A model generated the notes under the pieces. The model saw only the letters and a program-made list of their open reading frames with translations. It was not told the origin of the DNA and did not search any database. Position numbers and translations under genes: made by a program. A DNA stretch of 35,852 nt from Saprospiraceae bacterium. GTDB lineage: Bacteria > Bacteroidota > Bacteroidia > Chitinophagales > Saprospiraceae. The DNA is taken from NCBI GenBank assembly GCA_026989035.1, contig JALSKB010000002.1, positions 1 through 35,852 on the forward strand, given 5' to 3'. Shown here piece after piece: positions 1,368-35,852 of the stretch. How positions within the stretch are numbered: the first letter of the stretch is position 1; each line of letters opens with the position of its first letter.

Positions 1368-2324
1368 TCAAGGCTGCACAGCAGATACTCGATAACCGGC
1401 TGCCCTCAACAAGCGCACCACCCCCTGCTCTCCGCCCAGATGCCCTGCACCAACGGCAAAAAAGACCGGCCCTTCCGCCATTAATTTCTGCATACCTGAA
1501 ATCCAATTCTTGTTGCGCCCAACGACAAACAAATCGCTGTACTTCCTGGTAAATTCATCTTGCAAGAGCAACATGGCTGCCAACGAATCTACATCTTGCG
1601 CCTTATACGTGGTTATCAAAGCCTCCATAGAAGGGCTTGCTTCTTTTTCCTCCTCTGAAGCCTCTTCTTCATGCAAGGCATCACGCAGCAAGTCGGCCTG
1701 TTCAGAATAAGGAATCTTATCAAACAGGCTCATTTGAAAAGAAGCTGTTTCCAGCCCATCCATCTCTTTACCCGATTCTTGAGCTTTGCGAAGCAACTCC
1801 ATTTCATAAGAAGTAGTCGCTTCCATTCCTTCTTCATTTGCATCAGACAGCCCGGCCCCTACCTGATCTTGTTGTAAAAAGAACAAGATAAAAATGGGCT
1901 TCCAATTCTTTATCATAAACATGGGCATGCCTTGGTCTTTCATACGCTTGGAAACCAAGGCATAATCTTCTTCCGAAAGCAAATCCTCCAAAGTGGTATC
2001 ACCCTCCATAGTCATTTTCCCCATCAATCCGATCATATTAAAAGGAGACATGGCTTTCTCCAAATCTATTTCAAAAACCACCTTATCGCATTTGGCGAAA
2101 GCCTCTTCAAAGCCTTTCGGCAAAAAGAAATCCTCTTCACCAATCACGTGAATGGTGCCAAAGAGATAGGAGGTATCAGTCATATCCGGAGCCGTAATCC
2201 GCCACAACAAGGCATGCTCCAAACTATCGGTCGGAGGATTAGCCGCTCTCAGGCCGAAAGAGCTCAACATCAAGAATAAAAAAAGTGAAAACTTTTCACC
2301 CGGAGAAAGAGAATTATAGTTCAT
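1368..2324 (-). CDS. TraB/GumN family protein (exported)
   Basis: 318 residues. It begins with a short polar segment and a hydrophobic stretch (FSLFLFLMLSSFGLRA) typical of a signal peptide. TraB/GumN hallmarks follow: LFGTIHV near residues 54-60, and close to the C-terminus FFAVGAGHLGGEQGV with H295. The family is related to TIKI metalloproteases; a peptidase role in bacteria is not established. A TTG at 2327 directly precedes the ATG at 2324, and I prefer the ATG. Two copies of the dispersed 13-mer lie inside this gene only 9 bp apart (2091-2103 and 2112-2124). Confidence 0.85.
   Translation of the reverse strand: MNYNSLSPGEKFSLFLFLMLSSFGLRAANPPTDSLEHALLWRITAPDMTDTSYLFGTIHVIGEEDFFLPKGFEEAFAKCDKVVFEIDLEKAMSPFNMIGLMGKMTMEGDTTLEDLLSEEDYALVSKRMKDQGMPMFMIKNWKPIFILFFLQQDQVGAGLSDANEEGMEATTSYEMELLRKAQESGKEMDGLETASFQMSLFDKIPYSEQADLLRDALHEEEASEEEKEASPSMEALITTYKAQDVDSLAAMLLLQDEFTRKYSDLFVVGRNKNWISGMQKLMAEGPVFFAVGAGHLGGEQGVVRLLRAAGYRVSAVQP
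2091..2103 (+). repeat. Dispersed 13-mer, GGC-GAAA-GCC form
   Basis: TTTGGCGAAAGCC inside the TraB gene; on the coding strand it is read as Ala-Phe-Ala-Lys. Confidence 0.85.
2112..2124 (-). repeat. Dispersed 13-mer, GCC-GAAA-GGC form
   Basis: GCCTTTCGGCAAA on the plus strand; on the coding strand of the TraB gene it is read as Leu-Pro-Lys-Gly, a different frame from its neighbour at 2091. Confidence 0.85.
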
Positions 2325-2420
2325 CAAGTTGCCTATTTATACCCAATCCACCTGTGCGCCATACCAGCTGGCAGTACCGAAAGATTTGGGATGTTCAAAG
2401 TCTGCAAATAGCTCAAACAC

Positions 2421-2521
2421 AAACTGAAATAGTTTAGGATATTTACAACTCGCTAACGGGCAAAAGGCAGGGAATTTGAGAGGCTGACGCCTCCCAAACC
2501 ATTTCGCCACGAGTATATTGA
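2421..2521 (-). repeat. Dispersed 3'-flanking repeat, copy B
   Basis: It aligns along its length with the copy at 5451-5560: AAACTGAAATAGTTTAGGAT, TATTTAC, then the hairpin TTTGAGAGGC (2475-2484), loop TGAC, GCCTCCCAAA (2489-2498), then CCATTTCGCCACGAGTATA. It sits immediately 3' of the minus-strand dsbD-like gene (stop at 2537). Further upstream (2335-2400) is a second, weaker match to the start of the element (TATACCCAATCC and CCGAAAGATTTGGGAT). Confidence 0.75.
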
Positions 2522-2536
2522 CAAAAGCGGTATAGC

Positions 2537-5164
2537 CTACTCTTGTTCACCATTTCTGTATTTTTCGAAATTTCTCAATCCACATTCCAAAAAGGTCTTG
2601 TACTCCTCTTTATCCGGAGTATAAGCCACCGGTTTATTCAGCACTTTTTTGCCATCCGAACTGAGCAAAACGTAATAAGGCTGAGAATTTCGATTGAAGT
2701 GTATCGCCTGAAAATCAGCCCATTTGTTGCCTACAGTACGCATGGTACGCTGACTAAAAGGCGAAGTATAGGGCATATCTAAAGTTGTGCGATCATCCAC
2801 ATAGAGAGAGATGAGCACGTATTTGTCCCTGATAAGCTCAAAGACACCATCCTGGCTCCAGACATTGTCTTCCATCTTTCGGCAATTGACACAGCCATAA
2901 CCCGAAAAGTCCAACAAAATAGGCTTGTTCTGTTTTTTGGCGAGAGCCAAACCCTCTTCAAAGTCGTGGTGGCAATCCAGATTCAACGGGCACTCTTTCG
3001 GATAGATGTAGCTATGCCCTGCAGGGGGAGCCAGACCGCTGAGTAGAGGTGGCGTTTTAAAAGTTCCGGACTGTTCGCTATATCGATATCCCAACAGCAA
3101 ATACAACATAAAGGCAAAGCTGAGAAGGGCCATAGCTATACGGCCGGGTTTTAATTTTTGTACAGGAGCCTCGTGTGGAAAGCGGATATAACCCAAAAAA
3201 TACAAGCCCAGAGCCAGCGCACACAAAACCCAAACAGCTAAAAACAATTCATAAGGCAGAAACTTCCAGCCCATGGTCAGGTCAGCGATAGACAAAAACT
3301 TCATAGCCAGGGCTATTTCCACAAAACCCAATGTAACTTTCACCTGATTCATCCACCCTCCTGATTTAGGCAGGCTATTTAACCAGGCAGGGAAGGCGGC
3401 AAAAAGAGCAAAAGGCAAGGCTAAAGCTGTTGAAAAACCAAACATCCCCATCAACGGCCCAGCAGGGATACCTCCCAAAATGACAGGGCCTCCTCCCGTA
3501 GCTGTTTCAACCAGCAAGGTTCCGATAATTGGCCCGGTACAGGAAAAAGAAACCAACGCCAAGGTGAAAGCCATAAAAAAAATGCCGATCAAACCACCCC
3601 GCTCAGCTGCTTTATCGGATTTGTTTACCCAGGAACTGGGCAGTGTAATTTCGTAGTAACCAAAAAACGAAAAAGCAAAAGCAATAAACAAAACAGCAAA
3701 AAAGATATTAAACCAAGCATTGGTAGAAAGCAAATTCAAAGCGTCTGCACCAAAAATCGCCGTTACGGCTAAGCCCAACAGCACATAAATCACAACAATA
3801 GACAAGCCATAAATCAACGCATTGCGCAAACCCTTTGCCTTGCCATCACTTGATTTTGTAAAAAAACTGACCGTCAAAGGAATCATGGGAAACACACAAG
3901 GTGTCAACAAAGCAAACAATCCTCCGGCAAAACCTAACAAGAAAATAAACCACAGACCTGACCTTTCTTTAGGAACAGTCGGCTCACCACTGCAACTCCG
4001 GTCCGACCAACTGTAGTCAAAGGTATAATCCACGGGAGTGCCTTTCAACTCATACTTTCCGGAAGCAAAGCCCGTTTCCGAAGTATGGTTTGTGGCATCA
4101 CCCGTATTCAAGTCAAAGGAAAAGCCTACCGAAGAAGGGGGTAGGCAGCGCTCATCATCACAAGTTACAAACTCCAGCTCACCTTTAACGGGCCGTGTAA
4201 CATCCATAACTCGCACTTTCTGCCGAAAGACTACCGGCCCCTCTACAAATTTAATTACCCTTACTCCACCAAAAAGCGGATCCGGCCCTTCCTTTTTGTG
4301 GCCTTCTTCTTTTACCTCTCCTTCCAGCTCGAAATGATCGCCCTCTTCAAAAGAAAAACTGGTAGGCTCCGGCCCTCCATCAGAAGTGTGTTGAGAATAC
4401 AGACTCCAACCAGGCTCCAAGTCGGCACGAAATATCAATTCGTACTCCTCGCCCCCTAAGGACTTAGATTCAAAAGTCCAACTCACTGGTTGGAGGAATC
4501 CTTCTTCCGGTTTCTTCACCAAATCTTCCATTTCTTCTTCTTCCTCGAAAGATAAATTGACATCCTCTTCCGCCTCTAGCAAAGATGATGGAGCAACATC
4601 GTTACTGTTCGTTGTATGAGTAATGTACTGCTCTTCTCCCTGCATCTCCCCTTCCTGCGAAGATGTTTTCCGAGAAGAAGAAGTTTCCTCCTCAGGCGAG
4701 GTAGATTGAATCTGCTCTAAATCAAAAGAGAACTCTACATCTGTGGGCGGCAGGCATTGGGTATCGTCGCAGGTCATGAAAGTCAAATATCCCGTAATTG
4801 GTTTATCGATTTCCCTCACCTTGACTTTCTGCTTAAAAATTGCCTCATCGTAAAACTTGACCAATTGCATCTCAAAAATGGGGTCAAAAACCTCCTTGCG
4901 ATGGGGACCACCTTCTTCTACCCGACCCAAACGCTCATAGTGATCACCCTCATCAAAAGTAAAAGAAGTCGGAATGGGGCCGTCTTCTCCCTCAATAAAC
5001 TGAGAATAAATGGCCCACTTAGGATCTATCCGGGCTTTAAAAATCAGGAGGTATTCCTCTCCGCCGAGAGCCTGTGCCTCCGTACTCCATTTTACCGGTT
5101 CAACAATTTGGCCCGAGGCACTCCAGCCTACAAGCAAAAGGACAAGAGCAAAAAACTGCTTCAT
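2537..5164 (-). CDS. dsbD: DsbD-type thiol:disulfide interchange protein with duplicated N-terminal domain
   Basis: 875 residues. After a signal peptide (MKQFFALVLLLVGWSASG) come two DsbD-alpha-like beta-sandwich domains at about 21-150 and 224-352, each with LGGEEY, a WxxYSQ motif and a CDDxxCLPP pair (C132/C137 and C335/C340). A Ser/Glu-rich acidic linker (150-222) separates them. A multi-spanning CcdA/DsbD-beta domain follows (about 403-690) with the conserved TPCVFPMIP (C423) and a later SCTGPIIG. The C-terminal thioredoxin-like domain carries CVNC at C758/C761. DsbD passes reducing power from cytoplasmic thioredoxin across the membrane to periplasmic partners. Single-alpha homologues are about 200 residues shorter. 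A -7-like TATGTTTG lies at 5318-5325 (minus) without a convincing -33 element. Confidence 0.93.
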   Translation of the reverse strand: MKQFFALVLLLVGWSASGQIVEPVKWSTEAQALGGEEYLLIFKARIDPKWAIYSQFIEGEDGPIPTSFTFDEGDHYERLGRVEEGGPHRKEVFDPIFEMQLVKFYDEAIFKQKVKVREIDKPITGYLTFMTCDDTQCLPPTDVEFSFDLEQIQSTSPEEETSSSRKTSSQEGEMQGEEQYITHTTNSNDVAPSSLLEAEEDVNLSFEEEEEMEDLVKKPEEGFLQPVSWTFESKSLGGEEYELIFRADLEPGWSLYSQHTSDGGPEPTSFSFEEGDHFELEGEVKEEGHKKEGPDPLFGGVRVIKFVEGPVVFRQKVRVMDVTRPVKGELEFVTCDDERCLPPSSVGFSFDLNTGDATNHTSETGFASGKYELKGTPVDYTFDYSWSDRSCSGEPTVPKERSGLWFIFLLGFAGGLFALLTPCVFPMIPLTVSFFTKSSDGKAKGLRNALIYGLSIVVIYVLLGLAVTAIFGADALNLLSTNAWFNIFFAVLFIAFAFSFFGYYEITLPSSWVNKSDKAAERGGLIGIFFMAFTLALVSFSCTGPIIGTLLVETATGGGPVILGGIPAGPLMGMFGFSTALALPFALFAAFPAWLNSLPKSGGWMNQVKVTLGFVEIALAMKFLSIADLTMGWKFLPYELFLAVWVLCALALGLYFLGYIRFPHEAPVQKLKPGRIAMALLSFAFMLYLLLGYRYSEQSGTFKTPPLLSGLAPPAGHSYIYPKECPLNLDCHHDFEEGLALAKKQNKPILLDFSGYGCVNCRKMEDNVWSQDGVFELIRDKYVLISLYVDDRTTLDMPYTSPFSQRTMRTVGNKWADFQAIHFNRNSQPYYVLLSSDGKKVLNKPVAYTPDKEEYKTFLECGLRNFEKYRNGEQE

Positions 5165-5377
5165 CTCATATTTGATTTTGAAACTTCCGACCCTACAGAC
5201 CTGATAAAGACCTGCGCATCGTCTTTTCTATATACGATTGGCCGCTCAAAAAGTTGTACCAAGTCGGCAAGAAGACAAATACGATTCCACTCCATGGGTC
5301 CTTGCCAAAAAGCAAGGCAAACATACTCCTTTTCAGGCAATCCACTGCCCCCTAGGTAATACAAAGATCGGGGTAAG
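5165..5377. other. Intergenic region 5' of dsbD, no gene seen
   Basis: This is the first part of a 402-bp gap. Short frames here lack start context and family resemblance. It must hold the promoter of the minus-strand dsbD gene, but only a lone -7-like box (5318-5325) is visible. The rest of the gap is repeat sequence, described separately. Confidence 0.6.
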
Positions 5378-5445
5378 AGACGCACGATCGTGCGTCTGCA
5401 CAAACGTGCACCCAATGACGTATGATGTCCGTCACGGTCAATTGG
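5378..5445 (+). repeat. Palindromic bracket repeat, left copy
   Basis: A perfect 20-base palindrome AGACGCACGATCGTGCGTCT (5378-5397), a small hairpin TGCAC-AAAC-GTGCA (5397-5410), then GTCCGTCACGGTCAATTGG (5427-5445). The same parts in the same order and orientation recur at 7172-7267 on the other side of the AAA-ATPase/nuclease gene. Confidence 0.85.
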
Positions 5446-5450
5446 AGAAA

Positions 5451-5560
5451 TATACCCAAACCGAAATGGTTTGGGGTATTTACGCCCCACAAACCAGCGA
5501 AAGATAAGGAGTTTGAGAGACTAAGGCCTCCCAAACCACTTCGCCATGAGAATACACTTA
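5451..5560 (-). repeat. Dispersed 3'-flanking repeat, copy C
   Basis: The best-preserved copy. One hairpin is CCCAAACC (5455-5462), loop GAAAT, GGTTTGGG (5468-5475). A second pairs TTTGAGAG (5512-5519) with CTCCCAAA (5528-5535) with one mismatch. It ends with CCACTTCGCCATGAGAATA just before the minus-strand stop at 5567. Read on that gene's transcript it is a two-hairpin 3' UTR; there is no strong U-tract, so a standard terminator is uncertain. Confidence 0.75.
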
Positions 5561-5566
5561 CCGGTT

Positions 5567-7090: not shown

Positions 7091-7095
7091 GTAAG

Positions 7096-7103
7096 CAAAG
7101 ATA
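7096..7103 (-). promoter_or_regulatory. -7 box TATCTTTG for the AAA-ATPase gene
   Basis: TATCTTTG on the minus strand ends five bases before the ATG at 7090, fitting the Bacteroidota -7 consensus TAnnTTTG. The start of transcription should fall at or next to the ATG. No TTTG is found at the usual -33 distance. Confidence 0.55.
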
Positions 7104-7171
7104 GGGCTAATTGGGTTAATTCGGTTAATCGGGGAATGGGGTCAATTGGGAAAATGGATTCCCCCCGCTAG

Positions 7172-7267: not shown

Positions 7268-7326
7268 TTCTACCGATTACACCAATTCCACACCAGCTTT
7301 CCCAGACAAATTGGATAGGACTTCAA

Positions 7327-7783: not shown

Positions 7784-7815
7784 TTTGACAGATTTTGGCG
7801 AAAGCCTTATCTTTG
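7784..7815 (+). promoter_or_regulatory. Predicted prfB promoter (TTTG-N20-TATCTTTG)
   Basis: TTTG at 7784-7787 and TATCTTTG at 7808-7815 are separated by 20 bases, matching the Bacteroidota housekeeping consensus (TTTG at -33, TAnnTTTG at -7). Transcription would begin near 7820, giving a leader of about 22 nt before the ATG at 7843. A copy of the dispersed 13-mer fills the spacer. Confidence 0.7.
7794..7806 (+). repeat. Dispersed 13-mer, GGC-GAAA-GCC form, in the prfB promoter spacer
   Basis: TTTGGCGAAAGCC lies between the -33 and -7 elements of prfB, abutting the -7 box. Confidence 0.85.
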
Positions 7816-10070: not shown

Positions 10071-10087
10071 ATTTGCCGAAAGGCAAA
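10071..10087 (+). repeat. Dispersed 13-mer, extended palindrome TTTGCC-GAAA-GGCAAA
   Basis: ATTTGCCGAAAGGCAAA in the divergent pheS/CaCA intergenic space; six base pairs can flank the GAAA loop. It lies upstream of both promoters' -7 boxes. Confidence 0.85.
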
Positions 10088-12076: not shown

Positions 12077-12110
12077 GGCTTTCGCCAAACGAGATGTATT
12101 TGGCGAAAGC
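12077..12110. repeat. Perfect inverted pair of the dispersed 13-mer between thiL and the M28 gene
   Basis: GCTTTCGCCAAA (12078-12089) and TTTGGCGAAAGC (12099-12110) form a perfect 12-bp inverted repeat around nine bases. The left arm extends to an exact 13-mer (12077-12089); the right arm differs in its last base. It lies 10 bp past the thiL stop and could act as a terminator or processing hairpin, though no T-run follows. Confidence 0.85.
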
Positions 12111-12119
12111 TGCAAACAA

Positions 12120-13710: not shown

Positions 13711-13742
13711 CAAAGGTACAGGTATCGGGGCTTTCGCCCAAA
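13711..13742 (-). promoter_or_regulatory. Predicted peroxiredoxin promoter (TTTG-N20-TACCTTTG)
   Basis: On the minus strand TTTG (13739-13742) and TACCTTTG (13711-13718) are exactly 20 bases apart, a full match to the Bacteroidota consensus. The TTTG is part of a variant of the dispersed motif. Confidence 0.7.
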
Positions 13743-13792: not shown

Positions 13793-15916
13793 CTATTTCA
13801 CCAAGGTCAGATCTCCGTAATACGTACCGGTAGTGCAATCTAAAAACTCAATGTCGATGAGGTAAGCATACACTCCCGGCTCAAGAGGCCGTCCATTGGC
13901 AGAGCGACCGTCCCAACCGAGTTTTTCGTTGTTGAGCGGAATGTCAGTCACTTCAAACAGCAACTCCCCCCAACGAGAGTAAATCTGAAGGCGGGAAATG
14001 GAAATGGCTACAGCGCTTCCGTAAGCCGTAAAGTAATCGTTGATGCCGTCTCCATTGGGAGAGAACGCATTGGGAATATAAATGGGCCGAACGGGCCGAA
14101 CGGAAACCGTAACGGTGTCTTCATCGCTACAGCCGTCCAGATCCACCGCTGTCAGCACAAAATCGGAACTCACCAGAGGTGTAGCCGTGGGCGTCAGGCA
14201 TTCCAAACAAGACAGCGGCTCAAGGATGCACTCTCCTACGGGCTGAATCCACAAAGGCGTAGCCGGACTGAGCGCCTCCTGAATGCTGCCTTCTAAAATG
14301 ACGGATTCCCCCAAGTCAATTTCCCTGTCAGGGCCGGCATCTACTATCAGAGGTGGAGGGTCTATCAGTTCCACCTCCAGCGAATCTACACAGCCCTTGA
14401 TGTCTTGGATAAAGACTTCATAGCTTCCGGCAGGCAGCTCGATAAAATTCCCCGAAGTTTGATAGAACTCTTGGTCTATGCTGAATTGATAGGCCGGAGT
14501 GCCCCCGCTGCCCGAAGTGCTGATAGAACCATTGAAATCTCCATGACAGTTGGGGTCATTGCTCCCATCCAATTGAATATCCAAATTCGTTGCCGGATCA
14601 CAACAAGGTTCGATGAAAATTTCCCGTAAGTCGGATACCGTGCACCCGGCATCGGTCTCCACTTCCAAAACAACGGTTTTACTACCAAAAGATTCGTAAA
14701 CTACGGTATGAGGCCCTGGCCCCGTAGCCGTAGCGGGATTAGCGCCCTCGCTGAAATACCAGGTATAGGATACCGCTGTCATCCCCTGAGGAATGATGGT
14801 CTCATCCGTAAAGGTGATTTCATCTATATCACATTGCCCCCCCAATTCGGGTTCCACCTCAAAACTCGTTTTAGGCCCCAAAAAAGTGCTGGAACCTCCC
14901 CAGGTGATGGAAAAGCCATGCCCGGTATTGCTAAAATTGTTGACAACCAGGGCATAGGATTTGCCCGACTCTAAGTTGATGTGAGATACAAAATTGTCAT
15001 CGCTCGAAGAACAACCCGGAAATTCTTGCGTATCCGTAGAAGACAGAGATAAACCCGTGGCACCCGTACAAGGCTCCCAAACCTCAAAAGGAGCTCCGAT
15101 ATTTTCCCCCGAAGCCATGCAGCGCAGCAAGATTTTACCCGAACAGTCGTCTATGCCGTTGGGTAACTCGTAAACGATAAAATCCAAATCATCCGTAGGA
15201 TTCGTAGGCGTCAGGGTGAAAGTTAGCGGCCCCGGTTGATCGCAGGTCCACTTGTACCAGACTGAAGCAAACTCTTCTTGTATACAACTGGCCGGATCTA
15301 CTTCATTAGTATTGAGACCTGCTCCCTGAATACTCTCTACGGTAAAAGGCGATTTGTCGCAAAGCACTACGGCCGTAGCACAATCCGAGCTGGGATCGGG
15401 TGGTTGGTTGAAATTGTTGACGCACAACTTAAAGGTGCCCGTATTCCCAAAACGAGCTGAAACGCGAATGTAATAAGTTTCCCCGGGAATCAAAGGCCCT
15501 GCAAAGCTCTCAATGACGTTTTGATTGAAGGCATCCGAAGCACAGGCTATTTCCGTCAGGTTAGAACAATCCCCGCTGTAAATTGCAAATTCCGGATTTT
15601 CCAAGGTTCCTTCGGGGGCAAGCGGTATGTTGCCAACCACCGTTACGTGTAAATCTTTGGCCTGGGCTGTAAATACAAACCACACATCTCGGGTAGGCGC
15701 GTTGAAGGGGAAACAGCCGGGCAGTGCTTGGGGAGACTCCGTAGCACCTGCAGTAGAAAAAGCGCCAGAGCCAGAGCACCAATTGTCCAGGTTAGTCAAT
15801 GAAATGGCTTGGTTGCAAACGTCGTTGGAAGGCTGGGCATACAAAAAGCCGGGGGCTTTCGCCAAATGCCATCCGGTTAGCAAAACAAAAATGACAAAAC
15901 GGAAAAGTTTTCTCAT
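13793..15916 (-). CDS. Secreted PKD/SprB-type protein with gliding-motility C-terminal domain (type IX cargo)
   Basis: 707 residues with signal peptide MRKLFRFVIFVLLTGWHLA. Two cysteine-bearing beta-sandwich segments lie in the N-terminal half (NDVCNQAISL...RDVWFVFTA and DCATAVVLC...FASVWYKWT), similar to domains that precede PKD repeats. A PKD-like domain (YTWYFSEGANPATATG...KTVVLEVETDAGC) and a SprB-like repeat (DPNCHGDFNGSISTSGSGG) follow. The last ~90 residues have the gliding-motility-associated signature YIPNAFSPNGDGINDYF, LQIYSRWGELLFE, GVYAYLIDIEF and a terminal YYGDLTLVK. Such a domain directs export by the type IX secretion system (type B sorting), so a cell-surface or secreted adhesin-like role is likely. 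The ATG at 15916 is preferred over a TTG at 15946. Confidence 0.9.
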   Translation of the reverse strand: MRKLFRFVIFVLLTGWHLAKAPGFLYAQPSNDVCNQAISLTNLDNWCSGSGAFSTAGATESPQALPGCFPFNAPTRDVWFVFTAQAKDLHVTVVGNIPLAPEGTLENPEFAIYSGDCSNLTEIACASDAFNQNVIESFAGPLIPGETYYIRVSARFGNTGTFKLCVNNFNQPPDPSSDCATAVVLCDKSPFTVESIQGAGLNTNEVDPASCIQEEFASVWYKWTCDQPGPLTFTLTPTNPTDDLDFIVYELPNGIDDCSGKILLRCMASGENIGAPFEVWEPCTGATGLSLSSTDTQEFPGCSSSDDNFVSHINLESGKSYALVVNNFSNTGHGFSITWGGSSTFLGPKTSFEVEPELGGQCDIDEITFTDETIIPQGMTAVSYTWYFSEGANPATATGPGPHTVVYESFGSKTVVLEVETDAGCTVSDLREIFIEPCCDPATNLDIQLDGSNDPNCHGDFNGSISTSGSGGTPAYQFSIDQEFYQTSGNFIELPAGSYEVFIQDIKGCVDSLEVELIDPPPLIVDAGPDREIDLGESVILEGSIQEALSPATPLWIQPVGECILEPLSCLECLTPTATPLVSSDFVLTAVDLDGCSDEDTVTVSVRPVRPIYIPNAFSPNGDGINDYFTAYGSAVAISISRLQIYSRWGELLFEVTDIPLNNEKLGWDGRSANGRPLEPGVYAYLIDIEFLDCTTGTYYGDLTLVK
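15854..15866 (-). repeat. Dispersed 13-mer, GGC-GAAA-GCC form
   Basis: It falls inside the signal peptide region of the type IX cargo gene, read His-Leu-Ala-Lys-Ala. Confidence 0.85.
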
Positions 15917-16009
15917 GGCTCTCACAAATTTTTCGCTGCCGGCCAAATGCCGGAAGACACTATTTTAAAACGCACATTGGCTGAACTTAGTGGCTCGCGA
16001 GCTTTACTT

Positions 16010-16088: not shown

Positions 16089-16787
16089 ATGCGAAGACAC
16101 ATTCCCAACCTCATCACCCTCTTAAACCTCCTGCTGGGCAGTACGGCTCTCGTAGCTCTATTTGCCGAAAGGCCTCAAACGGCGGTGCTGCTGTTTTTCG
16201 CTGCCGGTTTGGCCGACTTCTGCGACGGCTTGACAGCCCGCCTGCTCAAAGCCAAATCGGCTGTGGGCAAAGAGTTGGATTCCCTGGCTGACATGGTTTC
16301 TTTCGGCTTGTTGCCTGCTGCTGCCCTGTATCAGCTCTTGCAAGATGCCTTACCTAGTCCGACGCCCTTAGACTGGAGAAGCCTGCTCGCCTTTCTGCTG
16401 GCGGCTTCCGCCGCCTTGCGTCTGGCCCGCTTTAACCTGGACAAACGTCAGGAGCAGGATTTTATCGGACTACCCACGCCGGCTACAGCGCTCTTCTTTA
16501 TGGGTCTGCTGCTGATACACAGCCTCCAAAGTACAAGCTGGAGCGCTTTACTCGAAAACCCCATCCTCCTGTATGTCGCTCTGCTGCTGTTTTCTGCTTT
16601 GCAATTGGCTCCACTAAAGCTCTTCAGTCTAAAATTTCAGGGCTTGAGCTGGAAAAAGAACGCTTTTCGCTATACCTTTGTGCTGACGTTTATGGCTCTC
16701 TTGCTCTGGCTACGCGAGTTTGCCATACCTCTTGTCATCCTCTGGTATGTCGTTCTCGGCATGCTAAAGCAGAGCAGAAAAAATTGA
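16089..16787 (+). CDS. pssA: CDP-diacylglycerol-serine O-phosphatidyltransferase
   Basis: 232 residues, integral membrane. The CDP-alcohol phosphotransferase motif D-G-x2-A-R-x8-G-x3-D-x3-D is complete: D46, G47, A50, R51, G60, D64, D68 (DGLTARLLKAKSAVGKELD). Together with the N-terminal RRHIPNLITLLNLLLG it fits bacterial type II phosphatidylserine synthases, which make phosphatidylserine, precursor of phosphatidylethanolamine. The frame opens at 15990, but the ATG at 16089 starts at the conserved N-terminus. First gene of a plus-strand run (pssA-purS-rsmI-Spo0M-like-BatA-like). Confidence 0.93.
   Translation: MRRHIPNLITLLNLLLGSTALVALFAERPQTAVLLFFAAGLADFCDGLTARLLKAKSAVGKELDSLADMVSFGLLPAAALYQLLQDALPSPTPLDWRSLLAFLLAASAALRLARFNLDKRQEQDFIGLPTPATALFFMGLLLIHSLQSTSWSALLENPILLYVALLLFSALQLAPLKLFSLKFQGLSWKKNAFRYTFVLTFMALLLWLREFAIPLVILWYVVLGMLKQSRKN
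16161..16173 (+). repeat. Dispersed 13-mer, GCC-GAAA-GGC form
   Basis: TTTGCCGAAAGGC inside pssA, read Phe-Ala-Glu-Arg in the loop after the first membrane segment. Confidence 0.85.
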
Positions 16788-17210: not shown

Positions 17211-17915
17211 ATGCTGTACCTCATTCCCACGCCCATCGGCCATTTGGAAGACATCACCTTGCGCGCCCTGCGCCTGCTGAAAGAAGTGGACCTCATCCTG
17301 GCCGAAGACACCCGCCTCACCGGGCGACTGCTCAAGCACTACGACATCAGCACGCCCATGCAAGCCTTCCACGCCCACAACGAGCACAGCAGAGTACAAA
17401 AAATTTTGGATGAACTGCAAGCCGGAAAAAAGCTGGGGCTGGTATCCGATGCCGGCACGCCAGGCATTTCCGACCCGGGCTTCCTGCTGGTACGGGCTTG
17501 CCTGGAAGCAGGCATCCAAGTGGAAAGCCTGCCCGGCCCCACGGCTTTTGTCCCGGCCCTTACCGCTTCCGGCCTACCCTGCGACCGCTTTCACTTCGAG
17601 GGCTTTCTGCCTCATAAAAAAGGACGCAAAAAGCGCCTTGAATATCTGGCATCCCTGCCTCATACTTTCATCTTGTACGAATCGCCACACCGCATTGCCC
17701 GCTGTTTGCACGAGCTGGAAGCCCATTGTGGCCCCGACCGCCCCGCCTGTCTGGCCCGCGAACTCAGCAAAATCCACGAAGAATTTCTCCGCGGCACCCT
17801 TTCCCATTTGGCGAAAGCCGCAGAAAAACGTACCTTAAAAGGCGAAATGGTCTTGATTGTCGGTGGTCAAGCTTCCGACAAACGCAACAAAACGACGAGA
17901 AAAGATGATCGGTAG
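17211..17915 (+). CDS. rsmI: 16S rRNA (cytidine(1402)-2'-O)-methyltransferase
   Basis: 234 residues. RsmI 2'-O-methylates C1402 in the 16S rRNA decoding centre. Tetrapyrrole methylase fold motifs: MLYLIPTPIGHLEDITLRAL at the start, LILAEDTRLTGRLLKHY, HNEHSR, LVSDAGTPGISDPGFLLV and SLPGPTAFVPALTASGLP, then the typical GFLPHKKGRKKRLE and ARELSKIHEEFLRGTL. The ATG at 17211 has a good AGGAG five bases upstream; the frame opens at 17145 with a poorer start. The stop overlaps the next gene's start by 11 bases. Confidence 0.95.
   Translation: MLYLIPTPIGHLEDITLRALRLLKEVDLILAEDTRLTGRLLKHYDISTPMQAFHAHNEHSRVQKILDELQAGKKLGLVSDAGTPGISDPGFLLVRACLEAGIQVESLPGPTAFVPALTASGLPCDRFHFEGFLPHKKGRKKRLEYLASLPHTFILYESPHRIARCLHELEAHCGPDRPACLARELSKIHEEFLRGTLSHLAKAAEKRTLKGEMVLIVGGQASDKRNKTTRKDDR
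17807..17819 (+). repeat. Dispersed 13-mer, GGC-GAAA-GCC form
   Basis: TTTGGCGAAAGCC near the 3' end of rsmI, read Leu-Ala-Lys-Ala. Confidence 0.85.
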
Positions 17916-20765: not shown

Positions 20766-22736
20766 ATGAGAAAGCTGTTGTTCTTTTTTCTATCGGCCTT
20801 TTTCATCACTCAAAACTTGATAGCACAGGAAGAGCGCCCCGTAGATTTTAGCACACAACAAGAAGGAGATGCCTTGCGCTTTATCCCTCAGCCTCCTCCT
20901 TTACAGCAAATGGCCGGCGCGCCACCCGCCTATTGGCAATACTTCTGGGAATTCGGAGATGGCAGCTTCTCCTTTGAAGAACAACCTCTGCACGCCTATC
21001 CCGACGGCGGAGAATATGAGGTCATCTTGGCTCTGACGGCCACCTATGACCACGGCAAACCACCTAAAGAAAAACCCAAAAAAGTACGGGGCAACAGCAG
21101 CGGCTGGGCCTCCAACCAGCCCATGCCCAACGTCCTGCCCAAGCCCAAAGACGCCATCGCCCTGCAAGCCGTGCGCAATCCAAGGCCCGAAGAAAGCTTC
21201 ATCCTCATCCTCAGCTACCACAACCCCACCCAACACACCATAGACGGGCAAATCACGGTCAATTACAACGAAACGGCCTTTGGCTACGAGCTATTCACCT
21301 TCCGGGAAGCCCGCACCCACTACGGCGAAACCCCAGCACAAGGGCTGAGCTTGCTGCTGCCCGAAGACCAAACGATAGAAGCCTCGGCCTATGCCTGCAC
21401 AGAAGAAGGGCTGCCTTTCGGCAAATGGGAAAGCAAAACACCCATTCCCTCAATGGCTTATAAAAACAAAAACTCCGACTTCGGCCAGTCCGAAGGTTGG
21501 TTCTTCCAAAACCTGGCCCCGGGAGAAACTCGAAACCTCTTCATGAGTTTCGACGCCTCACCCCAAATGCTGCAAGACACCAACGTCATCATCCACTTCC
21601 AAGCCCGATTACAAGACGCCAGCGGCCAACTGGACGAAACTTTCGACCTGGCACTTTCCATCGTCTCCTCCCACGACCCCAACTACCTGGCCGTTGACAA
21701 ACGCCTGAGAAGCTATCGGGGCATTCGCAAAAAGACCTTCAAATACGAAGTGCACTTCCAAAACAACGGAGACGGACCAGCCAACAAAATCCGCGTCAGC
21801 GTAAACATCCCCGAAGGCCTCAACCCGGAATCACTGGAAGTCTTGGACTTCTACCCCGAGTGCCCCATTTGCCCGAAAGGGCAAACCATAATCGGTAGCT
21901 GCTTAGACACCGCTTTATACAGCAACCGCGTGGAATTCACCTTCCACAACATCTATCTACCCGGAACAAAACAGCAAGGCGTGAGCAAGCGGGATTCCAC
22001 CAAGGGCTTTATCCGCTATGCCCTCAAACCCGGCAAAAAGACCGAAAAACGCAAAATGAAAAGCCGGGCTTCCATTTTCTTCGACAACGATGCTCCCATC
22101 ATCACCCGACCGGCTAACACCCGCTTTAAGTGGGGTATATCGCCCGGTCTGGTTTTATCCCGCCCCTTCTACCCCGACACCGTAAGCCAATGGCGACTGG
22201 GTTTTGTGGCAGCCCCCTTCAAACCCTATAAACCCTACTTGCAAATGGAAATACACGGGGGCATAGGCTTCAAAGCCAAAAAAACAGAGCAGGAAATGGA
22301 CACCACTTCCTTTGTCATTCCAGGACAAAATTTCCAAACCGACTCCATTTACACGACACAGAAAAACATTTCAACTTCACGCTTTTCTATGGAGTTCGTC
22401 CCCTTGCACTTGCGCCACAACCTGGGGGGCTTCTTTGCTCTGGGCGCCGGAGTCTCCGTAGAATGGGCTCAGGAAGTCCACGATGTTACGGCTTTTCGCT
22501 CTCTGACTGAAATTTGCCAAATCGGTTCCGCTGGCACATTTTGCCATACCGATGTAAACCCGGGAACGACTTCTGAAGAGTACAGAACCTCTTCCCAATA
22601 CTTTGCTCCATCGCTCTTTGCCGAAATGAGCCTGGGCACCGTACGCCTTGGACCTTCCGTAGGTTTGCGGGCCTATCTCCCCCTCTCCGATAAACGAAAA
22701 TTTTACCTAACTGCTTTCGGCTTATGGCGGTTTTGA
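20766..22736 (+). CDS. Exported PKD-domain protein with repeat-like middle and barrel-like C-terminus
   Basis: 656 residues. Signal peptide MRKLLFFFLSAFFITQNLIAQ. A PKD domain is visible around 25-100 (YFWEFGDGSFSFEEQPLHAYPDGGEYEVIL). The middle holds a DUF11-like segment (VDKRLRSYRGIRKKTFKYEVHFQNNGDGPANKIRVSVNIPEG) with CPIC nearby and SIFFDNDAPI. The last ~180 residues alternate polar and hydrophobic residues in short strands and end in LTAFGLWRF, with the terminal Phe common in outer-membrane beta-barrels. The arrangement suggests a surface-exposed module held by a small barrel; this is inference. The upstream ATG at 20643 (122 bp earlier) is in frame, but the signal peptide favours 20766. 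A TATCTTTA box lies at 20624-20631. Confidence 0.75.
   Translation: MRKLLFFFLSAFFITQNLIAQEERPVDFSTQQEGDALRFIPQPPPLQQMAGAPPAYWQYFWEFGDGSFSFEEQPLHAYPDGGEYEVILALTATYDHGKPPKEKPKKVRGNSSGWASNQPMPNVLPKPKDAIALQAVRNPRPEESFILILSYHNPTQHTIDGQITVNYNETAFGYELFTFREARTHYGETPAQGLSLLLPEDQTIEASAYACTEEGLPFGKWESKTPIPSMAYKNKNSDFGQSEGWFFQNLAPGETRNLFMSFDASPQMLQDTNVIIHFQARLQDASGQLDETFDLALSIVSSHDPNYLAVDKRLRSYRGIRKKTFKYEVHFQNNGDGPANKIRVSVNIPEGLNPESLEVLDFYPECPICPKGQTIIGSCLDTALYSNRVEFTFHNIYLPGTKQQGVSKRDSTKGFIRYALKPGKKTEKRKMKSRASIFFDNDAPIITRPANTRFKWGISPGLVLSRPFYPDTVSQWRLGFVAAPFKPYKPYLQMEIHGGIGFKAKKTEQEMDTTSFVIPGQNFQTDSIYTTQKNISTSRFSMEFVPLHLRHNLGGFFALGAGVSVEWAQEVHDVTAFRSLTEICQIGSAGTFCHTDVNPGTTSEEYRTSSQYFAPSLFAEMSLGTVRLGPSVGLRAYLPLSDKRKFYLTAFGLWRF
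21413..21425 (-). repeat. Dispersed 13-mer, GCC-GAAA-GGC form
   Basis: GCCTTTCGGCAAA inside the PKD/barrel gene, read Pro-Phe-Gly-Lys. Confidence 0.85.
21867..21885 (+). repeat. Dispersed motif variant with longer stem
   Basis: ATTTGCCCGAAAGGGCAAA in the PKD/barrel gene: the stem is one pair longer (TTTGCCC/GGGCAAA) around the GAAA loop, with perfect pairing over seven bases. Confidence 0.65.
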
Positions 22737-25037: not shown

Positions 25038-25050
25038 GCCTTTCGGCAAA
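25038..25050 (-). repeat. Dispersed 13-mer, GCC-GAAA-GGC form, in the asnS leader
   Basis: GCCTTTCGGCAAA, 14 bp upstream of the asnS ATG and downstream of the likely promoter, so it would be transcribed in the 5' UTR. Confidence 0.85.
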
Positions 25051-25141: not shown

Positions 25142-26038
25142 ATGAGACCACAGCACTTATATCGCCTGGCAGCGCTCAGCGTTTTGCTCGGCCGGGCTTA
25201 TCAACATTTGTTTTGGGATGCTCCTTTCAGAGCCCTGCTTTGGGATGAAGCCCGCATGCGGCCTTTGGTCGAAGCGCTGTTCGGCTATTCCTGGAGGGAC
25301 TGGGTCAGTAGCCCCTCGGCTCATGCCGTCATACAGAACCTCATCACCGGCATGGGCGGCTTTTATCTCCTGGCCGCGCTGATCGTCTTATTTGCCGAAA
25401 GGCTACCCAAAAAAGTCGTACAAAGCACCCTTTTGCTGGCAACGGGCTTGCTCACTTTGCTGGCGCTGATGTATTGGAAAGAAAAATTTTTCCATCTCGG
25501 GCAATTGTTTGAATACAGCTTGCAGATAGCTGCCTTACCTCTTTTTCTGCTTTCGCAAAACGGAGGATTACCCGCTCTTCGTAGTCGAACTCTCCTCATC
25601 AAGGCAGCCATCGCCCTCACCTTCATCTGCCATGGCCTTTACGCCATAGGCGTTTATCCTCGCCCGGGTGATTTCGTTACCATGTTGATGCAGGGGCTGT
25701 GGCTGAACGAAGGGCAGGCTATCACGGCTTTGAAGACTGCCGGCCTGCTCGATTTCACCGCCGCTCTTTTGCTCTTTACACCCGAAGGGGTAAGCCTGTT
25801 CAAGCGAAACAGCCCTTGGGCGCATCGCCTTTTTAGGGCAGCTCTCTGGTACTGCATCATCTGGGGTTTACTCACAGCCCTAGCCAGGGTTTGGTCCCAT
25901 TTCTATCTGCCTTTCTGGCTGGAGAGCCTGCACCAATGGGCTTGGCAAACCATCGTACGCCTCCCCCATTTTTTTATTCCCCTGGCACTGCTGTTGCAAC
26001 AAGCCCCAAAAGAGGCAGCACAGACCTTGAGGCTTTAA
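25142..26038 (+). CDS. Polytopic membrane protein with DoxX-like segments
   Basis: 298 residues, about eight hydrophobic segments and no signal peptide. Two stretches look alike: GRAYQHLFWDAPFRALLW...GFYLLAALIVLF in the first half and CHGLYAIGVYPRPGDFVTMLMQGL...GLLDFTAALLLF in the second. The latter resembles DoxX-like membrane proteins, so an internal duplication is possible. The ATG at 25142 follows a GC-rich start region; the frame opens at 25097. Function unknown. It is divergent from asnS (118 bp). Confidence 0.6.
   Translation: MRPQHLYRLAALSVLLGRAYQHLFWDAPFRALLWDEARMRPLVEALFGYSWRDWVSSPSAHAVIQNLITGMGGFYLLAALIVLFAERLPKKVVQSTLLLATGLLTLLALMYWKEKFFHLGQLFEYSLQIAALPLFLLSQNGGLPALRSRTLLIKAAIALTFICHGLYAIGVYPRPGDFVTMLMQGLWLNEGQAITALKTAGLLDFTAALLLFTPEGVSLFKRNSPWAHRLFRAALWYCIIWGLLTALARVWSHFYLPFWLESLHQWAWQTIVRLPHFFIPLALLLQQAPKEAAQTLRL
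25391..25403 (+). repeat. Dispersed 13-mer, GCC-GAAA-GGC form
   Basis: TTTGCCGAAAGGC in the DoxX-like gene, read Phe-Ala-Glu-Arg, the same frame as in pssA although the proteins are unrelated. Confidence 0.85.
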
Positions 26039-26150: not shown

Positions 26151-27365
26151 ATGAAACAAGCATACATCGTTTCCGGGCTGCGGACACCCATAGGAAAATT
26201 CCGCGGCAGCCTTTCACCCGTGCGAACCGATGACCTGGCAGCGCTGGTACTGAAAGCTCTGGTAGAAAGACACCCCCAAATCCCGCCTGATGCCTATGAA
26301 GACGTCTTCATGGGGTGCGCCAATCAGGCTGGCGAAGACAACCGCAACGTGGCGCGCATGGCCTTGCTGCTGGCCGGTTTGCCCTGGAAAGTAGCCGGAG
26401 AAACCATCAACAGGTTGTGCGCCTCAGGCATGTCGGCCGTCATACACGCCCGCCGCGCCATCGCCTGTGAAGAAGGCGAGCTTTTCCTCGCAGGTGGTGT
26501 GGAGCATATGACGCGAGGCCCCTGGGTCATATCCAAAGCCTCCCAGGCCTTTGGTCGCGATAGTCAGATGTTCGACTCCAGTTTCGGCTGGCGATTTGTC
26601 AATCCCAAAATGGAAGCACTCTACGGTACACACAGCATGGGGCAAACGGCCGAACATTTGGCGGAAGCCATGAACATCTCGCGCAAAGACCAGGACCTCT
26701 TTGCCTGGCGCTCCCAGCAAAAAGCTGCTGCAGCTCAAAAAAACGGCCGCCTGGCTGAAGAAATCGTACCCGTAGAAATCCCTCGTCGCAAAGCCGATCC
26801 GCTGATTTTCTCCGAAGATGAATTCATCAAGCCCGATACCACGCCCGAAGTACTTGCGCGCTTGCGCACGGCTTTCAAATCCGCCGAAGAGGGCGGCACT
26901 GTAACAGCGGGCAATGCCTCCGGCCTCAACGATGGAGCGGCAGCCCTGCTCATTGCTTCGGAAAAAGCCGTAAAACAATACGAACTCAAACCCCTGGCTC
27001 GCATCGTTTCTTCCGGCGTAGCCGGCGTAGAACCCCGCATCATGGGAATAGGCCCTGTCTATGCTTCTGAAAAAGCCCTGCAAAGGGCCGGCCTCCAGCT
27101 CCAGGACATGGACATCATCGAACTGAACGAAGCCTTTGCCGCCCAGTCTTTGGCTTGCACCCGCAGCTGGAACATCCCCGACGACGACCCCCGTCTCAAC
27201 CCCAACGGAGGGGCTATTGCTCTGGGGCATCCGCTCGGCATGTCCGGGGCCAGAATCCTGCTCACTGCCGCCATGGAGCTTCAAAAGCGGCAAGCCCGAT
27301 ACGCCCTGGTAAGCATGTGTGTAGGTGTGGGTCAAGGCTGTGCCGTCATACTCGAAAAAGCCTGA
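26151..27365 (+). CDS. Thiolase (acetyl-CoA C-acyltransferase, PcaF/PaaJ-like)
   Basis: 404 residues, a full-length thiolase. Nucleophile C90 in NRLCASGM, H360 in [14 protein letters not shown] and the second cysteine C390 in SMCVGVGQG are all present, so it should be active. The start [21 protein letters not shown] and the [17 protein letters not shown] segment resemble beta-ketoadipyl-CoA thiolases (PcaF/PaaJ) as well as FadA-type enzymes. These cleave 3-oxoacyl-CoA with CoA to acetyl-CoA plus a shortened acyl-CoA. The next gene, 3 bp downstream, is paaY-like, favouring the PaaJ role. A motif with one mismatch (ATTTGGCGGAAGCC) is at 26656-26669. A 456-codon antisense frame overlaps it and is judged spurious. 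Confidence 0.9.
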
Positions 27366-27989: not shown

Positions 27990-27992
27990 CCC

Positions 27993-30391: not shown

Positions 30392-30393
30392 AT

Positions 30394-31788
30394 TTAAGAT
30401 GGTTTTGAGTTTGAAACTTTCTTCCTGTCCTGTTCGTAAAAAGCACTCAACAACTTGTGCAAGCTAATCAAAACAGGTTCTTCAAAGCGAGAAGAGCGCT
30501 CTACGTTTTTTTTCAACAAAAAAATCTTTTCAATTAACTCTTGAGACACACCACTCCGGCGGGCCAGTGCTGAAGCTTGCTTTGAAGAAAGCTCACCGTG
30601 TAAAGATAAGGCATAATGCCTATGCACATAGCCTACCCACAGCCGCAACATTTCCAGCCCCAACTTTCTATGATTCCCCTTCAAAAAAGTCAATTGCCCG
30701 ATCAAAGCAACATATTCCATGGAGGTGTTTTTCGGCTGCACCAAAACGGGAACAATCCGCTGACGACGCTTCCCCATAAACAAGACAAACAACAAACCCG
30801 AACTCAACAACAAATACCAAGCCCAAGCCAAAGAAGGCTGAGAAAGTACGTATTTCAAAGGAGTTTGAGACAGCGTAGGATACACATCATCAATATCGTC
30901 AAAGGCAAAAGTAGGCCTACTGTCCCAATAGATGTGGCCTTTCGGCAAATGTGCAAAAACCGCAGAGGCATAGGCAAAACCTTCCTCCTCCAACAAGCTG
31001 TAATTGGTGAAAGCCAAGGGCGTGGAATGCAGGTAAATCTTCCCTTTGCCGAAAGGCAAATAGAAAAAATTTACGCCTAAGGGTTCTTCTTCACCCTCCT
31101 CATTTTCATAGACATAATCCCCTATGCGAATTCGGCCCAAAGCTCTTAGCGCTATTTCTTCATCAGGACAAGCAGACCAACACGGACACAGAAGTTCTTC
31201 TCCCAACTCATGCCAATTGAATAACCCTACTTCGTAATCAGATCTAAAAAGCAAAGTATGAGAAAGAATTGTGGAATCCAGGGTGAGTTCAAGAACGGCG
31301 AGAGAGTCCCTGTAAAAATCGTAAAAAAACTCATCGTAAAAATCTTCCTGTAAAACAGGGTATTCTTCTCCGTTTTCATATTGAATGAACCAAGAGCCAT
31401 CATGCTTTCGCCAACACATCCGATAAAGCAAAGAAACGGGTAATCCTTCCGATGCTATAAAAGCCACATGCCCCTCTTCCACAAAATCCAGCAAGCGCTC
31501 ATTCTCCACCGAATCGTAATTCATCTGCACTCCAATAAAGACAAAAGCAGAAGAGTCATCTCTTTCGTCAAAGGTGAGGCTATCTTCCAAAACCGTGAAA
31601 TCCCTTGAAGAATTTTTCAGTAAATCATAGATGAAATACAAAGCATAAGGGTCTTTACTTTCGACTTGATAATTGGGATACCACCAGGAGTAACGGGCAC
31701 CAAATTTCTTGGGTAAAACCAGAAACACAACAAACAGGGCTGCTCCTGCGACCAACAATCCTATACTCTTTCTTGTCTTATCACTCAT
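30394..31788 (-). CDS. DUF4350-domain membrane protein
   Basis: 464 residues. An N-terminal helix (SIGLLVAGAALFVVFLVLP), then GARYSWWYPNYQVESKDPYALYFIYDLLKNSSRDFTVLE as in DUF4350 proteins, a Rossmann-like extracellular or periplasmic part (FVFIGVQMNYD, VAFIASEGLP, GKIYLHSTPLAFTNYSLL), a second helix (AWAWYLLLSSGLLFVLFMGKRR) and a cytoplasmic tail. The family fits the MoxR cluster; its activity is unknown. It overlaps the end of the SpoIIM/DUF4129 ORF by eight bases, and two copies of the dispersed motif lie within it. Confidence 0.8.
   Translation of the reverse strand: MSDKTRKSIGLLVAGAALFVVFLVLPKKFGARYSWWYPNYQVESKDPYALYFIYDLLKNSSRDFTVLEDSLTFDERDDSSAFVFIGVQMNYDSVENERLLDFVEEGHVAFIASEGLPVSLLYRMCWRKHDGSWFIQYENGEEYPVLQEDFYDEFFYDFYRDSLAVLELTLDSTILSHTLLFRSDYEVGLFNWHELGEELLCPCWSACPDEEIALRALGRIRIGDYVYENEEGEEEPLGVNFFYLPFGKGKIYLHSTPLAFTNYSLLEEEGFAYASAVFAHLPKGHIYWDSRPTFAFDDIDDVYPTLSQTPLKYVLSQPSLAWAWYLLLSSGLLFVLFMGKRRQRIVPVLVQPKNTSMEYVALIGQLTFLKGNHRKLGLEMLRLWVGYVHRHYALSLHGELSSKQASALARRSGVSQELIEKIFLLKKNVERSSRFEEPVLISLHKLLSAFYEQDRKKVSNSKPS
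30937..30949 (-). repeat. Dispersed 13-mer, GCC-GAAA-GGC form
   Basis: GCCTTTCGGCAAA in the DUF4350 gene, read Leu-Pro-Lys-Gly. Confidence 0.85.
31045..31061 (+). repeat. Dispersed 13-mer, extended palindrome
   Basis: TTTGCCGAAAGGCAAAT in the DUF4350 gene, 95 bp from the copy at 30937; read Pro-Phe-Gly-Lys on the coding strand, a different frame from its neighbour. Confidence 0.85.
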
Positions 31789-34420: not shown

Positions 34421-34442
34421 GGGGTAAAAATACAACTTTTAC

Positions 34443-34450
34443 TATATTTG
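34443..34450 (+). promoter_or_regulatory. Possible -7 box TATATTTG for the RDD gene
   Basis: TATATTTG 20 bp before the RDD start codon in the 50-bp divergent space. No -33 element; the opposite-strand promoter of the MoxR operon is not visible. Confidence 0.4.
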
Positions 34451-34470
34451 AGCCAAAATCCTCCAAAGCC

Positions 34471-35223
34471 ATGCCAGCAACGCTATTTATAGTAACCCCA
34501 CAACAAGTACGCATCGAGTACGAACTGGCAACACTTGGAGAGCGCTTCATCGCCAAAATCATCGACATCCTTCTCTTCTCTGTCGCCTATTACTTCTTTA
34601 CTTATATCTTTTTTGAGCTGACAGCAGCAGCTCTACAAGATACATGGTTCACCTTATACCTTTTCTTTTTCTTCCTGCCTCTCTTCAGCTTTTTGCTCTA
34701 CCATTTTCTTTTTGAACTTTTTAAAAACGGACAGACGCCTGGAAAAATGTTGCTCTCCCTGCGCGTCGTACCCCTCGATCAGTGGGAGCCCAAGCTCAGT
34801 CACTATGCGCTAAGGGCAATCTTTCTCATACCCGACCTCATCATGAGCATGGGTATCTTCGGCGCCCTGTTCATCAGCGGCTCCCCCCTGAGACAACGCA
34901 TGGGAGATCTGACAGCCCATAGCGCTGTAGTTCGCCTGAAAACACAGCGCACTTTCTCTATAACAAATATATTAAAAATAAATAACAAGAAAATCAAAAA
35001 AATCACCTGGCCTCGCCTCAAAGAATTGACCGATGAAGACATGCTTCTCGTCAAAGAAACACTCCAACGCTATAAACTCTACAACAACAAGAGCCACCGC
35101 CAAGCGCTGCAACAACTGTGCGTAAAGATGGCAGAACTACTGCAGACAGAGCCCCCCAAACCCAAAGACAGAGAAAAGTTTCTCAAACGCATACTCAATG
35201 AATACGTGCTGATTACGCGCTAA
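34471..35223 (+). CDS. RDD-family membrane protein
   Basis: 250 residues. RDD features: LATLGERFIAKIIDILLFSVAYYFF (with R and D in the first helix), FFLPLFSFLLYHFLFELFKNGQTPGKMLLSLRVV (NGQTPGK after helix 2) and RQRMGDLTAHSAVV (the late D). A long charged, helical C-terminal tail of ~85 residues follows (KELTDEDMLLVKETLQRYK), probably cytoplasmic. RDD genes are regular neighbours of SpoIIM and the MoxR cluster, here transcribed divergently from it. Function in this context unknown. Confidence 0.9.
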   Translation: MPATLFIVTPQQVRIEYELATLGERFIAKIIDILLFSVAYYFFTYIFFELTAAALQDTWFTLYLFFFFLPLFSFLLYHFLFELFKNGQTPGKMLLSLRVVPLDQWEPKLSHYALRAIFLIPDLIMSMGIFGALFISGSPLRQRMGDLTAHSAVVRLKTQRTFSITNILKINNKKIKKITWPRLKELTDEDMLLVKETLQRYKLYNNKSHRQALQQLCVKMAELLQTEPPKPKDREKFLKRILNEYVLITR

Positions 35224-35228
35224 AAAAG

Positions 35229-35852
35229 TTAAACGCTTTCGCGCTCCAGCTCAAAAGTATCGTCATCGTCGGTAGCAGCCCCACTTGTCTTCTCCCAAAT
35301 CCAAACCAAAAACACCGAAACGTATTCCAAGGCAACTATCCATAAGTTTTCAGTATAAACCGGATAGCTGTAGTTGATGTAAGTCCAACTTATGGCATAG
35401 GACCACCACAAAATAAAATAAGGGGGCGATTTGCGAAAAAAAACAGCTAACAAAACGGGAAAACTCAAGTACCAAGGATGTACAATGGTTGCAAAAAGTA
35501 AATAAATCACAAAAGACCAAAAGCAAGTCTCAAGAAAATCTCTAAAATCTCCACGCCTCCGCCACCAGGCAAGCCCCAAAATGATTAAGCCCGCCATCAC
35601 GCCCAGCAAAGGCCCCAGGCGATGGATGTCGTTGTAACCCAATTGCAGATAGCGCAGCCAACGCAACAGATAATACACCGAAGCATTAAACTCAAATTTT
35701 CTAAAATACAAATCCAGGCTTTCGCCAAAATGACTGACAAAAAAACCGTGAAAAAACGGCCAAAACAACAGCAAAAGGGCCACAAGAAGGGTTCCAAACC
35801 AAGGCAAAACCAAAAAACCGCTTTTCTTCTGCCGAATAACATTTGGCGAAAG
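35229..35852 (-). CDS. Membrane glycosyltransferase-like protein (5' truncated by window edge)
   Basis: The frame is open to the window end, leaving the last 207 residues. At least five hydrophobic segments are visible. FFVSHFGESLDLYFRKFEFNASVYYLLRWL and FATIVHPWYLSFPVLLAVFF resemble GT-C-fold mannosyltransferase/DUF2029-type (GT87) proteins. The catalytic N-terminus is outside the window, so this is tentative. The tail ends in an acidic stretch (DDDDTFELERESV). A TTG at 35813 is not the start, because residues upstream are still in frame. It converges with RDD, 5 bp apart. Confidence 0.55.
   Translation of the reverse strand, partial: LSPNVIRQKKSGFLVLPWFGTLLVALLLLFWPFFHGFFVSHFGESLDLYFRKFEFNASVYYLLRWLRYLQLGYNDIHRLGPLLGVMAGLIILGLAWWRRRGDFRDFLETCFWSFVIYLLFATIVHPWYLSFPVLLAVFFRKSPPYFILWWSYAISWTYINYSYPVYTENLWIVALEYVSVFLVWIWEKTSGAATDDDDTFELERESV
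35717..35729 (-). repeat. Dispersed 13-mer, GGC-GAAA-GCC form
   Basis: GGCTTTCGCCAAA in the last gene, read Phe-Gly-Glu-Ser. A further copy, cut by the window edge, is at 35841-35852 (ATTTGGCGAAAG). Confidence 0.85.

Follow-up and report, generated by a model that had tools for sequence, protein, structure and literature searches.

Covarying GNAA mini-hairpins iterated through Saprospiraceae genomes: a possible self-recognition signal read on single-stranded DNA

DUS, USS, Chi, HIP1 and KOPS, the iterated genome signals known so far, are linear words or palindromes of double-stranded DNA, and to our knowledge none has been described as being read by its fold. The 35,852-nt stretch analyzed here (the window) is one whole contig (C2) of a Saprospiraceae genome (G000), the assembly of which comprises 3.12 Mb in 215 contigs. 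The best-scoring matches of its AsnRS in other genomes are Saprospiraceae proteins (70 % identity). The window harbours a 13-base motif dispersed through genes and intergenic DNA, which raises the questions of whether a word or a structure is being repeated, what keeps it in place, and which process might read it.

The motif in the window, the genome and the family

An earlier note on this DNA had reported 14 exact copies of two related 13-mers; all 14 were found at the positions it gave, compared with 0.01 expected from dinucleotide shuffles (none of 100 shuffles matched). The form TTT-GGC-GAAA-GCC is present as an exact match at 2091..2103 (+; with an inverted neighbour at 2112), 7794..7806 (+; intergenic), 12077..12089 (−), 15854..15866 (−), 17807..17819 (+) and 35717..35729 (−). 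The form TTT-GCC-GAAA-GGC is present at 2112..2124 (−), 10072..10084 (+), 16161..16173 (+), 21413..21425 (−), 25038..25050 (−; intergenic), 25391..25403 (+), 30937..30949 (−) and 31045..31057 (+).

Near copies had likewise been listed. The one at 12099..12111 (+; TTTGGCGAAAGCT) was borne out and reads TTT-GGC-GAAA-GCT, with a G.T wobble as its outer pair. The other four exist, but their coordinates required correction: from 13727 to 13729; from 21867 to 21868 (21868..21882, +; TTTGCCCGAAAGGGC, a variant with a 4-bp stem, TTT-GCCC-GAAA-GGGC); from 26656 to 26657 (26657..26669, +; TTTGGCGGAAGCC, the loop variant TTT-GGC-GGAA-GCC); and from 35841 to 35842 (35842..35852, +; TTTGGCGAAAG, a copy severed by the contig end). 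A further paired copy, absent from that list, was detected at 25548..25560 (−; TTTTGCGAAAGCA) and represents the stem variant TTT-TGC-GAAA-GCA. The window also encodes, at 13793–15946 (−), a surface protein with a CHU_C type IX secretion signal and PKD and SprB domains.

Enrichment extends beyond the window and is genome-wide, the two 13-mers occurring 1092 times in G000 (548 forward, 544 reverse) as compared with a single copy of the backward-read control. A count close to Markov expectation, or enrichment restricted to the window, had been named beforehand as grounds for rejecting the motif; neither was observed. TTTGCCGAAAGGC and TTTGGCGAAAGCC were counted 182 and 109 times, respectively, in a sample of 790 kb, for which an order-5 Markov model predicts 0.8 and 0.65. 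The statistics were drawn from 25 % of the fragmented G000 assembly and from portions of its relatives.

Exact 13-mers number 904 and 740 in the congeners G001 and G002, 30–377 in a few other genera of the Saprospiraceae, and 0–4 in the other families of the order. A looser pattern applied to 150 genomes of the family revealed no excess in most genera and a strong one in a minority, for example with counts over control of 3831/267 (G028), 3917/280 (G156), 3332/430 (G163), 2825/222 (G157), 2232/291 (G000), 1867/217 (G101) and 1067/113 (G112). In a phylum-wide sample, strong excess was confined to the Saprospiraceae. Viral contigs carry single exact copies at most among the matches listed, on which basis carriage by phages was discarded.

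Two observations were made alongside. Several genera of another Bacteroidota family (f36; G192, G204, G237, G253 and G295) display an about twofold excess of TTTNNCGNAAGNN. In G032 (L162–L165), the word CCTGACTCCT / AGGAGTCAGG is over-represented (10 times in 80 kb), with kindred words in L072; it may represent a different signal or a repeat.

Pairing of the arms and genus dialects

The earlier note had treated the 13-mer as the motif and had listed a hairpin among its possible roles. The hairpin stands, whereas the conserved unit is not the 13-mer: pairing statistics compiled from the genome sequences show the conserved object to be a small hairpin with covarying arms, composed of 5'-TTT, a stem of 3–4 bp closed by C-G, a GNAA loop and genus-specific flanks. 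The unpairable one-base mixes TTTGCCGAAAGCC and TTTGGCGAAAGGC (GCC/GCC and GGC/GGC) are both absent from 790 kb (1.0 and 0.5 expected). Watson-Crick pairing at the middle stem position was found in 457 of 530 cases in G000, as compared with 217 expected from independent columns; the corresponding values are 60 of 62 (28.6 expected) in G001, 20 of 23 (8.0) in G163 and 59 of 68 (18.5) in G028, a genome with all four types of pair. The rare stems TGC/GCA, CGC/GCG and CAC/GTG were seen solely as pairs.

Scanning a 545-kb subset for TTT-NNN-N4-NNN, paired stems were found to be strongly enriched only with the loops GAAA, GGAA, GCAA and GTAA and with TTTC, the last of which we take to be copies with AAA after them, seen from the opposite strand. 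In this subset, GAAA hairpins were enriched only after 5' TTT. Folding as single-stranded DNA is predicted at −5.8 kcal/mol for the motif and at −0.8 for a mismatched version. A GNAA loop closed by C-G, as in d(cGNNAg) or d(GCGAAGC), is a very stable fold of single-stranded DNA. Flanks in the genus of G000 consist of C at −2 and A at −1, followed downstream of the hairpin by about 8–10 A-rich bases; the preceding A described earlier as usual was indeed found at −1 in 60–74 % of copies in the 545-kb sample.

Enforced pairing of the arms disfavours a HIP1-like palindrome, a methylation site of double-stranded DNA and a nucleoid-protein site, all of which had been proposed, because a reader of double strands has no reason to enforce it. 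Covariation is ordinarily taken as evidence for functional RNA and here reveals a folded signal in genomic DNA; pairing tests in place of k-mer counts thus offer a way to find such signals elsewhere.

Stems and flanks differ between related genera, with pairing retained. G028 uses the stems TGC, TCC, GGC, ACC and others, with loops preferred in the order GCAA>GAAA>GTAA>GGAA, and the form in G101 is GTTTT-GGC-GAAA-GCT with a G.T outer pair. Stem length appears flexible, since 4-bp stems (TGGC/GCCA, GGGC/GCCC) are as frequent as 3-bp ones in G112 (L229–L233).

Action on DNA, origin and spacing of sites

Selection or drive had been suggested to act on DNA and not on protein. This view is supported, as sites track the coding share of the genome (83 % of sites in genes, which make up 87 % of the sequence) and gene-borne sites are about equally often sense and antisense (188 and 181, with gene calls from a simple codon-score script). 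Genes with atypical codon usage, foreign-looking by codon score, displayed no shortage of sites, a point against a self-recognition role in transformation.

In alignments with congeners at about 70 % flank identity, 23 of 34 sites retain the hairpin (the set, built from two congeners, counts some orthologous sites twice). Among these, 19 are identical and four altered, namely by three loop changes and one full stem flip from GGC-GAAA-GCC to GCC-GAAA-GGC; the remaining sites are broken or contain indels. Any 13-mer is identical with a probability of 0.034 in the same alignments. In the window, the site at 35717 is identical in G001 and G002 and that at 16161 is identical in G002, where its flanks are only about 73 % identical, the site at 25391 is broken in G002, and both congeners keep the hairpin at 26657 with a GAAA or GGAA loop. 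Three other genera align gap-free at 26657 and lack the hairpin, which therefore was not inserted there. Sites thus appear to arise by substitution and to be retained afterwards, and the alignments show that selection or molecular drive maintains the signal at its positions.

These results bear on three other explanations. A transcript hairpin acting as terminator, processing site or protein-binding site would be in keeping with the GNRA-like loop, the A-rich 3' side and the tolerance of G.T pairs; such an RNA role, also raised in the earlier note, is nevertheless very unlikely, because the symmetry of sense and antisense sites largely refutes an element of messenger RNA. Moreover, convergent intergenic DNA, the home of terminators, is depleted in G000 (1 site in 7.1 kb, whereas intergenic DNA otherwise has about 0.75 per kb), for which reason a terminator function was dismissed, and an Rfam search of the window yielded no match. 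REP-like hairpins mobilized by a RAYT/Y1 transposase or a similar element would share shortness and high copy number, but the gap-free origin by substitution and the location of most sites inside genes refute mobility as the main route and render it extremely improbable. A search for Y1_Tnp drew a blank in several strongly enriched genomes, and many other genomes carry it; its presence being uncorrelated with hairpin richness, the RAYT/Y1 transposase was rejected both as reader and as mover. Codon or oligonucleotide bias, or mutational correction of quasi-palindromes, has a practically negligible probability: template-switch repair does favour perfect palindromes, but enrichment is tied to 5'-TTT plus GNAA and does not extend to other loops or 5' flanks, and an order-5 Markov model predicts 0.5–1 copies in place of the 182 and 109 seen, which refutes it.

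The two strands are spaced independently. Same-strand pairs less than 4 kb apart number 335 as compared with 420±19.5 expected (below all 400 simulations), whereas opposite-strand pairs are not depleted (457 versus 418 expected). Adjacent sites switch strand in 247 of 399 cases (210±9.7 after shuffling), and the per-strand coefficient of variation (CV) of the gaps is 0.79 versus 0.97±0.04, at a density of about one hairpin per 3.6 kb per strand. Within the contigs of the fragmented assembly, strand balance is even or better (chi2 9.8, 24 df). The spacing and conservation tests were devised after inspection of the data; their effects are far from chance. An orientation-blind reader of double-stranded DNA should space both types of pairs alike, and avoidance on the same strand only implies that each strand is spaced separately. 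The pattern is as expected of a process that reads each strand by itself, on a length scale of about 3 kb, from which we infer that the hairpin is recognized on single-stranded DNA.

Candidate readers and comparison with known signals

Chances appear evenly balanced that the hairpins constitute a structure-defined genomic self-signal, by which one bacterial family marks each chromosome strand with GNAA mini-hairpins read as single-stranded DNA. Such a signal, if real, would represent the first iterated genome signal recognized by fold and not by sequence, with its own receptor and genus-specific dialects. Our favoured reading of their function, advanced tentatively and at slightly less than even confidence, is a self-recognition signal read on single strands, most likely for natural transformation via the pilus-less route of Bacteroidota. 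This route would comprise a DUF5689 surface lipoprotein, an outer-membrane barrel and ComEC, as in Riemerella. The hairpin-carrying strand would be preferentially bound, admitted or protected, and hairpin-forming alleles, being favoured in recombination, would accumulate in the manner of uptake sequences. Each strand would need its own copy every few kilobases, because either strand may enter. A difficulty for this scheme is that incoming DNA usually stays double-stranded as far as ComEC; a receptor at the surface would need to encounter melted DNA or single strands.

Competence of Riemerella, a member of the Bacteroidota, requires ComEC, DprA, RecA, ComF and a DUF5689/DUF5017 surface protein, together with a neighbouring outer-membrane protein and an HhH protein (PMC8459023). 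R. columbina favours its own DNA, and k-mer counting there gave only A/T-rich words (PMC7965970). The hairpin provides a testable lead on own-DNA recognition in pilus-less Bacteroidota, where self-preference is reported without a clear uptake sequence (PMC7965970).

ComEC was detected in 46 of 47 genomes of the family and DUF5689 in 46 of 50 tested, the latter with a strong match in every strongly hairpin-rich one. Both were discarded as discriminators, ComEC being near-universal, hairpin-poor genomes included, and DUF5689 being present also in most poor genomes. None of the gene families compared with the patchy genus distribution (Y1 transposase, ComEC, T2SSE, PD-(D/E)XK AddA/B-like and DUF5689) explains it. 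Uptake by type IV pili was rejected, as the ATPase (PF00437) gave no above-cut-off match in G000 and most enriched genomes and few in the family.

The DUF5689 proteins possess lipoprotein-like N-termini, and the frame upstream of and adjoining their gene resembles, by eye, an outer-membrane barrel (L426, L429; G157, G083); Pfam gave no match for this candidate frame. OB-fold hits for DUF5689, weak and below the Pfam cut-off, would fit binding of single-stranded DNA, whereas hhalign of the DUF5689 profile against the OB domain of AsnRS (one OB family) was negative; a search for a solved structure of DUF5689 found none. Among the DUF5689 loci L425–L444, short versions (440–490 aa) occur in the hairpin-rich genera g1, g27, g29 and g99. 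DUF5017 was found in 8 of 14 hairpin-poor members and in 0 of 6 rich or moderate ones, a weak, post hoc pattern. DUF5689 length and the DUF5017 pattern are regarded as a lead for receptor specificity.

The main rival, although unlikely, is a Chi-like role, in which the hairpin on the unwound strand would attenuate or switch an AddAB- or RecBCD-type helicase-nuclease when double-strand breaks are repaired. One strand is read from each break end, so that sites are needed on both; single-strand reading and strand-autonomous spacing are compatible with this role, as is the density of about one site per 3.6 kb per strand, and AddA/AddB-like PD-(D/E)XK proteins occur in nearly all genomes, G000 included. 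Unlike the usual bias of Chi, however, hairpin sites are strand-balanced within the contigs of the fragmented assembly, and an AddB-like protein of about 930 aa is missing from G112, which is strongly enriched, yet occurs in many genomes without enrichment, an imperfect match for which the AddB-like nuclease was dropped as discriminator. Some other reader of single-stranded DNA is slightly more doubtful, be it replication priming or restart, a nucleoid or SSB-like protein, or a self-mark shielding single strands from a defence nuclease. Strand-specific spacing and the patchy distribution in the family suit it, as do viral contigs with no more than one exact copy among the matches listed; yet the two strands carry the mark equally throughout, where priming on the lagging strand would be expected to favour one of them, and this explanation comes without a candidate gene.

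REPs are intergenic and transposase-linked. Short genome-wide hairpins are common to REP/BIME elements with their RAYTs and to the Saprospiraceae, but those of the latter are intragenic, built by mutation and uncorrelated with Y1 transposase genes. Chi sites are linear words, usually leading-strand-biased, that are read on single strands; the hairpin is similar to them in density and differs in being defined by structure and, within contigs, balanced between the strands. In cyanobacteria, HIP1 (GCGATCGC) is iterated in genes, patchy among genera and debated in function (PMC4390886). It is a palindrome of double-stranded DNA tied to methyltransferases, whereas the Saprospiraceae motif is a stem-loop with a GNAA loop and a freely covarying stem and thus no perfect palindrome of fixed sequence. 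DNA mini-hairpins are used in aptamers (PMC4686876), and no genome-wide use of the d(cGNNAg)/d(GCGAAGC) type was found in searches of open PMC papers.

The DUS of Neisseriaceae and the USS of Pasteurellaceae resemble the hairpin in their roughly one thousand copies, their location in genes and their occurrence in both orientations. The USS has an adjacent A-rich tract, and the hairpin is likewise A-rich alongside. DUS form dialects by genus within one family, some members of which lack DUS (PMC3630211); the same was found for the hairpin in the Saprospiraceae. In contrast to DUS and USS, G000 is without a detected type IV pilus ATPase, and the hairpin is not enriched as terminator pairs. Position and orientation of USS have no effect on uptake (PMC1939737), whereas same-strand sites in the Saprospiraceae repel each other and opposite-strand sites do not. 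Finally, DUS and USS are linear words in double-stranded DNA, while the hairpin is base-paired, with a stem that covaries.
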